Shown: piece after piece, positions 1 to 2,819 of the stretch
How positions within the stretch are numbered: position 1 is the stretch's first letter
Layout: the number at the start of each line of letters is the position of its first letter
Source of the DNA: Thermodesulfovibrionia bacterium
GTDB lineage: Bacteria; Nitrospirota; Thermodesulfovibrionia; UBA6902
Assembly (NCBI GenBank): GCA_947259645.1
Contig: CAMYND010000024.1
Span: forward strand, 1 to 34,626
Direction of reading: 5' to 3'
Length of the DNA stretch: 34,626 nt
Program-made: the position numbers and the translations under genes
The notes under the pieces: generated by a model
What the model saw: the letters and a program-made list of their open reading frames with translations, nothing else
Told to the model about the DNA's origin: nothing
Databases searched by the model: none

Positions 1-410
1 ACCGCAGGCTGTAATTTAAGGATATCAGCAGGCTTTCTGAATAACATAAGGTTATTCATTTCCAGGTAATTGATGTATTCCTCGTTCATTGTTCCCGAAA
101 AGAACAGAAACGAGTTCTTATAAAGCGTCTCCAGATTTTTGTATAGTTCAATCCCGTTCATGAACGGCATCTCGATGTCAGATATCACAACATCGAAATG
201 ATGCCCGGCACACTTTGAGAGAGCATCAAGTCCGTTAATGGCTGTATAGACAATCCCCTCTTCGTGAAGGACTATAGATAGCATTTCCCTGATAGCCTCA
301 CTATCATCCACGACAAGAATGCTCTTGATACTATCAAACCCTGTAACAGATCTCTCACCAGACCCGGGGCTCTGCCTGCCCGGAAATAGCGCGGTATTTA
401 TTGCTTCCAT
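1..410 (-). CDS. Response regulator receiver protein (N-terminal part, runs off window edge)
   Basis: The visible 136 residues form a CheY-like receiver domain after a 29-residue N-terminal extension. Seen: ILVVDDSE carries the acidic pair D35/D36, VVISDIEMP carries the probable phospho-acceptor D78, S105 lies in LFFSGT, and K126 lies in FRKPAD. All catalytic receiver residues are therefore present, unlike in the activator at 1452. The frame stays open through base 1, so the output domain, if any, is outside the window. The start at 410 has GGGAGG about 10 nt upstream; an in-frame ATG at 428 overlaps that Shine-Dalgarno sequence and is less likely. A cognate kinase is not visible. Family assignment is firm; the pathway is unknown. 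Confidence 0.9.
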   Translation of the reverse strand, partial: MEAINTALFPGRQSPGSGERSVTGFDSIKSILVVDDSEAIREMLSIVLHEEGIVYTAINGLDALSKCAGHHFDVVISDIEMPFMNGIELYKNLETLYKNSFLFFSGTMNEEYINYLEMNNLMLFRKPADILKLQPA

Positions 411-495
411 GCTGACTGCGCCTCCCATGATTTCTTATTCCAGATTTATCTTCCGTCTTATTGTTACGTCTAAACAATAAACGCATTCAGGGAAT

Positions 496-544
496 CCGGG
501 GGATATGAAAGTATCTGATAACCCTCATAGATCATCTCCCCCGG
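496..544. repeat. Inverted repeat between response regulator and small-gene cluster
   Basis: Arms CCGGGGGATATGA (496-508) and TCATCTCCCCCGG (532-544) are complementary with one mismatch around a 23-nt loop. It lies just downstream of the 33-aa gene on the minus strand and upstream of the response regulator. It has no following T-run, so it is either a factor-dependent end of the small-gene transcript or a structured leader. No gene was recognised in the rest of 411-562. Confidence 0.45.
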
Positions 545-562
545 CCTGCTGCTGAACCCTGA

Positions 563-664
563 CTACTTTGTTTTGCCCTTCTTCATGGAATAGTTGATTG
601 TCTTTGCATCCTTTTTCTTTTTCTTCTCTGGCTGGGATTTAGGTTTTTCAAAGTTTTTTTTCAT
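563..664 (-). CDS. Small lysine-rich protein, 33 aa
   Basis: Unrecognised short gene. It encodes 33 residues, 14 of them lysine, with a KKKKK run at residues 14-18. It has no signal peptide or hydrophobic segment, so it is probably cytoplasmic and may bind nucleic acid or an acidic partner. Support for translation is an AAAGGAGG Shine-Dalgarno sequence about 7 nt before the ATG and the co-oriented 56-aa gene ending 21 nt upstream. No family is recognised. A lysine-rich low-complexity peptide can arise by chance, so the ribosome-binding site and cluster context carry most of the weight. Confidence 0.5.
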   Translation of the reverse strand: MKKNFEKPKSQPEKKKKKDAKTINYSMKKGKTK

Positions 665-685
665 CGCGTTCCTCCTTTTCTGAAA

Positions 686-856
686 TTACCGGGAATTTAT
701 CAATTCCCAGTTGTCCTGGTATTGTTCCTCATAGAAGAAATGCTTCACCTGTTTCTTACTCTTTCCGTATGCATGAGCGGGAGCAATTTTCTTGCGATTT
801 TTTTGCAATAACCTTTTTTTCCTCTTTTCTTTTTGGTAGATTATTCCTTCAATCAT
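686..856 (-). CDS. Small basic protein, 56 aa
   Basis: Unrecognised short gene. The product is strongly basic in its first 40 residues (KEKRKKR at 9-15, NRKK at 20-23, GKSKK at 31-35) and ends in a more acidic, aromatic segment (FFYEEQY, DNW). No membrane segment is visible. The ATG at 856 is preceded by GAGG with 7-nt spacing; a nearby ATG at 861 reads straight into a stop. The gene sits 53 nt after the acidic exported protein and 21 nt before the 33-aa gene, all on the same strand, suggesting one transcript. It resembles small RNA- or ribosome-binding proteins in composition only, and no function is claimed. Confidence 0.55.
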   Translation of the reverse strand: MIEGIIYQKEKRKKRLLQKNRKKIAPAHAYGKSKKQVKHFFYEEQYQDNWELINSR

Positions 857-909
857 TTCATCACCTCACGGTATGGTTATGCGTTGTCTTTCATGTTCAC
901 CCAGACATA

Positions 910-1191
910 CTACCCGCGATCTTCTTCGTATTTTTCATCAGGATAGTTTTCTTCTTCCGGATCAGGCAGGTCTTCTCCTTCCTGATCATATTCTTCTAGC
1001 AGTTCTTCACCTTCCTGATCATATTCTTCCAGCAGTTCTTGCTTTTCATCATCCATTTCATCTTCCGTGTCTCCATGAAGCAACTCTTCTGCAGCCTCCT
1101 CTTCAGTAGCAGCGAACAGGCTGTCTGATCCGGAGAAGAATATTCCCCCGACAAACAGGACTGCCATCAGCAAAGCCAAAACTTTCTTCAT
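910..1191 (-). CDS. Exported, extremely acidic small protein with tandem repeat, 93 aa
   Basis: The first 27 residues are a clear Sec signal peptide: MKK, a hydrophobic core, then SDSLFA. The predicted 66-residue mature part has 34 Asp/Glu and only three Lys/Arg. It contains two consecutive 11-residue units, LLEEYDQEGEE and LLEEYDQEGED, then a Pro/Glu/Tyr-rich tail. There is no cysteine, so it is not a lipoprotein. The start at 1191 is chosen because GGGAGG lies about 9 nt upstream and the signal peptide begins there; an upstream ATG at 1224 would only add a charged leader. Low-affinity metal binding or pairing with a basic partner is plausible but inferred. No family is recognised. It is the first gene after the sigma-54-like promoter at 1256-1270. 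Confidence 0.75.
   Translation of the reverse strand: MKKVLALLMAVLFVGGIFFSGSDSLFAATEEEAAEELLHGDTEDEMDDEKQELLEEYDQEGEELLEEYDQEGEDLPDPEEENYPDEKYEEDRG
971..1036 (-). repeat. 33-bp direct tandem repeat, two copies, inside the acidic protein gene
   Basis: Units at 971-1003 and 1004-1036 differ at only two positions and together encode the duplicated 11-residue acidic block. The near identity points to a recent in-frame duplication. Confidence 0.85.
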
Positions 1192-1255
1192 AATACGAAC
1201 CTCCCATTTGTGTGCCTCATTCAAGACACTCTGTTAACAGTTAATACAACTCATA

Positions 1256-1270
1256 TCAAAGATCGTGCCA
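1256..1270 (-). promoter_or_regulatory. Putative sigma-54 promoter for the small-protein cluster
   Basis: On the minus strand the sequence reads TGGCACG, four bases, then TTGA. The -24 GG is perfect and the G of the -12 element lies exactly 12 nt downstream; the final C of the -12 GC is A. Transcription would start near 1244, leaving a leader of about 50 nt before the ATG at 1191. The divergent neighbour is a sigma-54 activator, which strengthens the call. It rests on one imperfect match. Confidence 0.45.
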
Positions 1271-1451
1271 GATTCAAATAAAGAGAAATATACATATAAA
1301 TCAAGTAGTTTCACATCAGACCACAGGCATTTACTTTTTATGCACGATGTTTCTATACTAAAAGTGTCATTTTGTCGTATTAGTTTCTTATTTCGTTATA
1401 AATGAGGTCATATTGTCATAGTTTTTTACTGTTTTCAGGGGCGATACAATT

Positions 1452-2819
1452 ATGGTTAAACAGGACCGGAAGCTGAATGCTACCATCCTCTTTGCCGGTG
1501 AACAGGGAGACAGGAGATGGGATCCTTTGAACTCGTATTTAAAGAGAAAGGGAGCGCATATCATATGCACATATTCTTCAAGAGAAACATACGACATGCT
1601 GAAAAAAACTCCGGTAAACATCATAATCGCGGACTATGATCATTCTGATATTAAGGCTCTTGCCTTTCTGAGAAAGGCAAAGCGGATAAAAACGCATATT
1701 GAACTGATATTTCTCTCGGAAAAGGCGAGTTTATCAAAAGCTATAGAGGCCATGAGAGAAGGAGCATATGATTTTTATGAATTTCCTGCTAACACGAGAT
1801 TAATACTCGCGGTAATAGAGAAGGCCATTGAAAAGCAGACTCTCTCGATTGAAAAAACAGAGCTCGAGCAAAAGGTTAAGGACAAATTCGATTCCGGAAA
1901 GATCATCGGCAGGAGCAGGGCCATGCAGCATGTCCTTGACATTGTGGGCTCGATATCCGCAAAAAATGTTGCTGTCCTTCTCACAGGAGAAACCGGCTCG
2001 GGAAAAGAGATTATTGCCAAAGCGATACATTACAACAGCCCCCGCTCTGCTCAACCATTTATAGGCATCAACTGCGCAGCACTGAGTGAAGGAGTTCTTG
2101 AGTCAGAGCTCTTCGGCCATGAAAAGGGCTCTTTTACCGGCGCGGTTTCCAGAAGAATAGGAAGGTTTGAACTTGCTGACGGAGGGACTGTGTTTCTTGA
2201 TGAAGTCGGTGACCTGCCGTCCAGTATGCAGGTAAAACTTCTCAGAGTATTGCAGGAGAAGTCCTTTGAAAGGGTCGGAGGCAATGACCAGATAAAAGTG
2301 GATGTCAGGGTAATAGCAGCAACCCATAGAAATTTATATCAGCTTATCGATGAGGGGAAATTCAGGAAAGATCTTTTCTACCGTTTAAATGTTGTACACA
2401 TTGAACTCCCCCCCTTGAGAGACAGGAAAGACGATATACCCCGTCTCGTAAGTTCATTTATTGAGAAGTTCAATGATGAAAAGGATTACGGTATAAAGGG
2501 CGTTTCCCGGGAAGCAATGCAGATTCTATTGAATTACAAATGGCCGGGAAACGTCAGAGAACTTGAAAACGCGATCGAGTCAGCTATGGCACTCTCGACT
2601 ACTGAGGTCATCGAGTCTAAATACCTTCCATCATTCCTCCTCGTAACCAAGCCTCAGGACATTGACTTCTATCAAATCTCTCAAAACCTCACTCTGCAGG
2701 AACTGGAGGAAGAAATTATCTCACAGACTCTGGCAAAGACAGGCGGCAACAAGACAAAGGCCGCGAAGCTCCTTGGTATTTCCGTTAGAACGCTCCAGAG
2801 GAAAGTCAAGAACAAATAG
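1452..2819 (+). CDS. Sigma-54-dependent transcriptional activator with degenerate receiver domain
   Basis: NtrC-type bacterial enhancer-binding protein, 455 aa. Residues 10-125 have a receiver-like fold (IIIADYD with D61), but the usual acidic pair after strand 1 is absent (ILFAGEQ) and the conserved Lys-Pro is replaced in FYEFP. Normal phosphorylation is therefore doubtful. The central AAA+ domain is complete: Walker A GETGSGKE (179-186), sigma-54 contact loop GSFTGA (226-231), Walker B VFLDEVGD (247-254) and arginine-finger region FRKDLFYR (304-311). A Fis-type helix-turn-helix is at 424-452 ([13 protein letters not shown]). It hydrolyses ATP to remodel RNA polymerase-sigma-54. AGGGG lies 10 nt before the ATG. 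It is divergent from the small-protein cluster and ends 7 nt from the convergent tamB. Target genes are unknown. Confidence 0.93.

Follow-up and report, generated by a model that had tools for sequence, protein, structure and literature searches.

The stretch of DNA analysed here (the window) is one whole contig of 34,626 nucleotides (G000:C24) from a genome whose relatives are Nitrospirota. Near its start, three small genes lie on the minus strand: they encode an acidic protein of 93 aa (1191..910), consisting of a signal peptide (MKKVLALLMAVLFVGGIFFSGSDSLFA) and a mature part of 66 aa, a basic protein of 56 aa (856..686) and a Lys-rich protein of 33 aa (664..563). All three have a Shine-Dalgarno sequence (GGGAGGT, GAGGTG, AAGGAGG). 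More than half of the mature acidic protein is Asp or Glu (34 of 66 residues; net charge -31), with the sequence ELLEEYDQEGE present in two copies. The 56-aa protein (net charge +9) has a Lys/Arg-rich N-terminal half and a tail of the type YEEQY-DN, the net charge of the 33-aa protein is +11, and both basic proteins are without a signal peptide. These data bear out an earlier note on this DNA, which had claimed three co-oriented genes each with a Shine-Dalgarno sequence, one for an exported protein with 34 acidic residues in 66 and two for basic proteins of 56 and 33 aa, with no known family: searches of Pfam and NCBIfam with the three proteins gave no match above cut-off. The Pfam family Trypan_PARP matched the acidic protein with 18 bits (cut-off 100) and was discarded as low-complexity. 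The C-terminus of the acidic protein (NYPDEKYEEDRG; NYPDEKYQEDRG in its homologue in a second genome, G013) was tested for a PEP-CTERM segment with Pfam and NCBIfam, and no such segment was found. AlphaFold predicts helices for the 56-aa protein at low confidence only (mean pLDDT 67).

Just after the 33-aa gene lies a stem-loop on the same strand (CCGGGGGA...TCCCCCGG, 496..544), which is conserved in G013 (L002 1813-1861). It has no T-run and a z of -3.3 in the window and -1.9 in G013, and may serve in 3' processing or termination; a search of positions 1-2000 against Rfam gave no match. The next gene, truncated by the contig end, encodes a single-domain response regulator of the FLFF type (3..428, minus strand) that probably belongs downstream of the small genes in the same direction.

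G013, which matches CP070632.1 (Nitrospiraceae bin97), belongs to another genus within the family of the window genome. It has all three genes in the same order, next to counterparts of the window's divergent activator (79% identical) and of its TamA/TamB-like pair; it differs in that a gene for a CBM48-type protein of 130 aa separates the acidic gene from the 56-aa gene. Each basic protein is as long in G013 as in the window, and identity is 64% for the 56-aa and 79% for the 33-aa protein. Between the two genomes, pN/pS (NG86) is 0.31/0.95 for the acidic gene, 0.22/0.85 for the 56-aa gene and 0.11/0.67 for the 33-aa gene, and the excess of synonymous changes has Fisher p values of 3e-18, 3e-10 and 4e-6. 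Conservation of the three frames, proposed as a check in the earlier note, is thereby established for G013: both basic frames are kept, and the sequence comparison confirms all three as real genes under purifying selection. Simple composition, small size and the lack of a database family might suggest low-complexity frames that arose by chance in AT- or purine-rich DNA, next to a coincidental promoter; the pN/pS and synonymous-excess tests refute this, the promoter geometry and the Shine-Dalgarno sites are conserved along with gene order and lengths, and we give the idea practically no credence. By sequence, relatives are confined to these two genomes: a scan of the window genome's contigs with the 56-aa protein found none, an HMM of this protein found only G000 and G013 among 396 genomes of the phylum, the 33-aa protein was found in the same two among 200 genomes of the class, and within the family the acidic protein was found, weakly, in G013 only. 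The complete three-gene set is present in 2 of the 396 phylum genomes.

Upstream of the acidic gene, the TGGCACG-N4-TTGA element that the earlier note had read as sigma-54-like is found at 1270..1256 of the minus strand (TGGCACG-ATCT-TTGA), with a predicted transcription start near 1245. The -24 sequence TGGCAC and the spacing, for which the consensus has 10 bp between the GG and the GC, are those of a sigma-54 promoter, but the -12 sequence is TTGA instead of the consensus TTGC (GA, not GC). The spacing is shared with 13 further promoters, and the -12 is TTGA or TTGT at all 14. RpoN is encoded in the genome (PF04552 on G000:C14, 1.1e-60). Another Nitrospirota genome has two TGGCAC-N5-TTGA elements (L086, 6397 and 4257, both minus strand), the first just before glnK-amtB-like genes, suggesting that a -12 TTGA may be commoner in Nitrospirota.

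The divergent gene (1452..2819, plus strand) encodes, as the earlier note had it, a sigma-54 activator. It is of the NtrC type, with a degenerate receiver (weak match), an AAA+ domain (Sigma54_activat, 6.4e-72) and a Fis-type helix-turn-helix (HTH_8, 4.4e-14). The loop that contacts sigma-54 is GSFTGA, not GAFTGA, in four activators (window, L083, L086 and L094), all with TTGA or TTGT promoters. Within the receiver, Asp61 is nearly invariant, the acidic pair is degraded in the window copy, and the conserved Lys is replaced by Glu in 15 of 15 aligned members (DFYEFP or DFHEFP), so that the domain may receive its input by something other than ordinary phosphorylation. The activator family comprises 14 named loci and occurs in 15 of the 396 phylum genomes.

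When intergenic regions were compared, two palindromes with a consensus of about TGCGTCAnnnTGACGCA became apparent upstream of the window promoter, 41 bp apart: a proximal candidate activator site (TACGACAAAATGACACT, 1363..1379, minus strand) whose core lies 106 bp from the -24, and a distal one (TATGACAATATGACCTC, 1404..1420, minus strand) at 147 bp. The pair is arranged as expected if the divergent activator, being of the NtrC type, binds there. Of 300 first-order random sequences as long as the window, none had a match to promoter plus upstream sites. Combined patterns (sigma-54 element, 88-112 bp, palindrome core; TTGA and TTGT versions) were searched in 37 genomes of the family and matched the window locus, three loci of G013 and three others, the latter about the level of the reversed-pattern control; the patterns are near-specific to genomes with this activator. 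Matches in G019, G022 and G006 were put down to chance, the controls having given similar counts, and two palindrome matches in G013 (L055, L057) were rejected as chance because they lie in coding or transposase DNA. In four genomes, a conserved TATACT borders the proximal palindrome on the side that faces the activator gene (window 1354-1363; intergenic regions of L002, L038 and L039); judged from this position, the activator probably also represses its own sigma-70 promoter.

In Nitrospirota and Nitrospinota together, the layout was seen at 14 promoters: 11 have the strict palindrome pair, one has the proximal palindrome only and two have no strict match, and the distances from core to -24 are 105-113 and 145-155. 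At all 12 activator loci with such a sigma-54 promoter, the first divergent gene encodes a small low-complexity protein. It is an exported acidic protein in G000, G013 and the Nitrospinota locus L096, an Ala/Pro/Asn-rich lipoprotein at L086/L135, L093/L139, L094, L136, L137 and L140, a mixed-charge protein at L141 and L143, where the ORFs are from single genomes and have only their ribosome sites, composition and promoter position as support, and a Lys-rich protein of 42 aa at L142. The charged members have a charge fraction of 0.38-0.62 and a GRAVY of -1.2 to -2.3, and all are disordered by the Uversky rule; the lipoprotein members are uncharged and score as ordered or borderline, so the term polyelectrolyte does not fit every target.

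L142 is in G093, a genome of the same class but of another family, and here the gene of the Lys-rich protein comes before one for an exported acidic protein with repeats, behind the same layout; the last 20 residues of the 33-aa window protein align to this Lys-rich protein free of gaps (shuffle p 0.0005), which suggests common descent. A second locus of G013 (L058) has the layout before another exported acidic protein (MKSLLISFVMLLLTGGLLFAAPGHLGSAEETEPD...) and a single-domain response regulator, and at L056 of the same genome the promoter leads to another regulator of the FLFF subfamily; no such promoter was found at two further regulators of this type, L127 (the fourth in G013) and L128 (G000:C67). 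The acidic member occurs without basic partners at L096 and at L058. A kinase-like gene follows the activator of G093 and shares 61% identity with a gene next to the second acidic gene of G013, which connects these loci. Together with this kinase-like gene, the surroundings of the G093 activator (L144 3677-12429) contain genes for a methyltransferase-ATP-grasp fusion, a D-Ala-ligase-like protein of 716 aa and a gamma-glutamyltransferase. The claim of the earlier note that the genes form a small regulated unit under sigma-54 and the 1452 activator is supported by the tandem palindromes and by the layout at 14 promoters, and the sequence data support the window unit as one instance of a wider regulon and no isolated oddity. 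We regard the regulatory module as very probably real.

In G007, G018 and the Magnetominusculus group, a divergent promoter of the window type was not found. Here the activator is followed by genes for a KamA/AblA-like aminomutase, two ATP-grasp ligases and a GNAT behind TGGYAT-N5-TTGC, and in G018 the palindrome pair is seen at this promoter. Loci with this operon (kamA/AblA-like, ATP-grasp, ATP-grasp, GNAT) are L038 (10460-14791), L039, L084, L088-L092 and L095; it was not seen in the examined stretches of the window's own genome. The operons look like ones for the synthesis of a small molecule or peptide, similar to a compatible solute, and the product is possibly a beta-amino-acid peptide or an osmolyte. 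They resemble the ablA/ablB operon for N-acetyl-beta-lysine in having a KamA/AblA-like enzyme and a GNAT, here beside the activator family, but differ by the two extra ATP-grasp ligases and by the score of the KamA protein (503; AblA cut-off 525).

Positions 8055-32771 of the window encode a GH100/MGH-like protein, two Usp proteins, MscS-type channels, an exported-looking EF-hand protein, RimK together with PF05618, MgtE, and a protein similar to glucosyl-3-phosphoglycerate synthase (GpgS-like), as well as what we take from sequence to be a phosphoketolase, an acetate kinase and a P-type cation ATPase; the window also encodes a protein similar to mannosylglycerate synthase. By its predicted gene content, this region looks like an osmotic/energy-stress island. 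A gene for MscS is also near the activator in G013 and G093, and in Anammoxibacter genes for GH13 and a nucleotidyltransferase are near it. Osmotic or envelope stress is favoured by the MscS-type channels, MgtE, the GpgS-like and mannosylglycerate synthase-like proteins, Usp and RimK/PF05618; the KamA/AblA-like, ATP-grasp and GNAT genes under a promoter with upstream sites in G018 were counted for the osmotic context too. Secreted RimB-like (RloA) proteases have been linked to osmotic tolerance and to poly-glutamate cleavage (PMC12239564), and a link to the Glu-rich protein is possible.

From these comparisons we infer binding by the activator, dependence on sigma-54, the type of signal and a protective role. 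Oligomers of the activator would bind the two palindromes (1363-1379 and 1404-1420) and loop to an RNA polymerase-sigma-54 complex waiting at 1256-1270. Transcription would start near 1245, and the transcript would encode, in this order, the exported acidic polyelectrolyte, the two cytoplasmic Lys/Arg-rich proteins and perhaps the single-domain response regulator. The small proteins would be abundant, disordered polyelectrolytes: the exported acidic forms and the lipoproteins would protect the envelope, and the Lys-rich forms the cytoplasm, under osmotic or related envelope stress. Taken as a whole, a sigma-54 operon under the 1452 activator that produces disordered polyelectrolytes for stress protection is the explanation we consider likely, if by no means strongly so. 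The protective role itself, osmotic or envelope, is held tentatively, with the osmotic link resting on gene neighbourhoods. An envelope role fits the argument that the bacterial exterior is the main realm of sigma-54 (PMC3162934).

The opposite net charges (-31 against +9 and +11) and the co-occurrence in three genomes could also point to a charge-held binding pair, such as a toxin and its antitoxin or a bacteriocin and its immunity protein. However, a signal peptide is present on the acidic protein alone, and contact would require export of a basic protein or retention of the acidic one; it would moreover be unusual for such pairs to be under tight sigma-54 control by a dedicated activator. 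Opposite charge by itself implies no complex when one protein is exported and the others have no signal peptide: the acidic and basic proteins are probably in different compartments and not a binding pair, and we consider this alternative very improbable. Less improbable, if still unlikely, is that the acidic protein buffers divalent cations (Ca/Mg) or is a component of a surface polymer, with the basic proteins as unrelated passengers that bind, for example, RNA or ribosomes. Its 34 acidic residues, the EF-hand protein, the presumed P-type cation ATPase and the MgtE-type transporters in the window, and the acidic members that occur without basic partners would all agree with this, but a metal-binding motif is not recognisable, and the order of acidic and basic genes kept in G000 and G013, together with the Lys-rich partner in G093, argues that the pairing is not random.

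Another system has a similar layout: a conserved upstream site and a sigma-54 promoter before PEP-CTERM genes, with a cognate Fis-type activator (PMC1569441). The window activator matches the corresponding model TIGR02915, and the unit might be read as a variant of this PrsR/PEP-CTERM scheme, with surface proteins tied to exopolysaccharide. Against this, the match (378.1 bits) is below the cut-off of 502.6 and lower than those to the ntrC and AtoC models, no target has a PEP-CTERM segment, and no exopolysaccharide locus was seen in the 34.6-kb window; such a variant is highly implausible.

The favoured reading, a sigma-54 operon for stress protection, may extend to a general scheme: a dedicated family of enhancer-binding proteins in Nitrospirota, also seen in Nitrospinota, would act on a non-consensus promoter class (-12 TTGA/TTGT, tandem sites at fixed spacing) with disordered or low-complexity output, the exported acidic and the cytoplasmic Lys-rich proteins forming a two-compartment stress programme that is elsewhere coupled to small-molecule synthesis. 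We propose this with considerable reserve. That exported acidic proteins and Lys-rich ones are co-controlled in distant families points to a programme under selection and not to a one-genome curiosity. Small disordered proteins change too quickly to be traced by homology; here they are found by their promoter architecture, which offers a starting point for discovering and testing such genes in poorly studied phyla. The circuit also poses a testable question: by what mechanism sigma-54 and its activator function where the -12 of the promoter consistently has no C.

A literature search that covered few subscription journals found no description of this circuit, and we regard a control circuit driving small low-complexity proteins, in Nitrospirota and beyond, as previously undescribed. 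Hydrophilins are defined by a Gly content above 6% and high hydrophilicity. Like these and other LEA-like stress proteins, the charged proteins are small, very hydrophilic and predicted to be disordered; unlike them, they have no LEA match in Pfam, and Gly exceeds 6% in few members; it is 6.1% in the mature acidic protein, 3.6% in the 56-aa protein and 3.0% in the 33-aa protein. As the basic proteins miss the Gly criterion, we do not class the charged proteins as hydrophilins. With PrsR/PEP-CTERM the circuit shares an activator site and a sigma-54 promoter before genes of exported proteins and a phylogenetically matching activator, and it differs in that some targets are cytoplasmic. The closest likeness is to the regulons of NtrC-type enhancer-binding proteins, which have the same AAA+ activator with a Fis-type helix-turn-helix, a -24/-12 promoter and tandem palindromic sites upstream, in the general layout about 100-150 bp from the promoter (PMC7057263). 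Unlike in these regulons, the targets here are small low-complexity proteins, the -12 is not TTGC at any of the 14 promoters and the receiver has Glu for the conserved Lys. Judged from sequence, the circuit is sigma-54 regulation by an enhancer-binding protein in every tested feature but the C of the -12.
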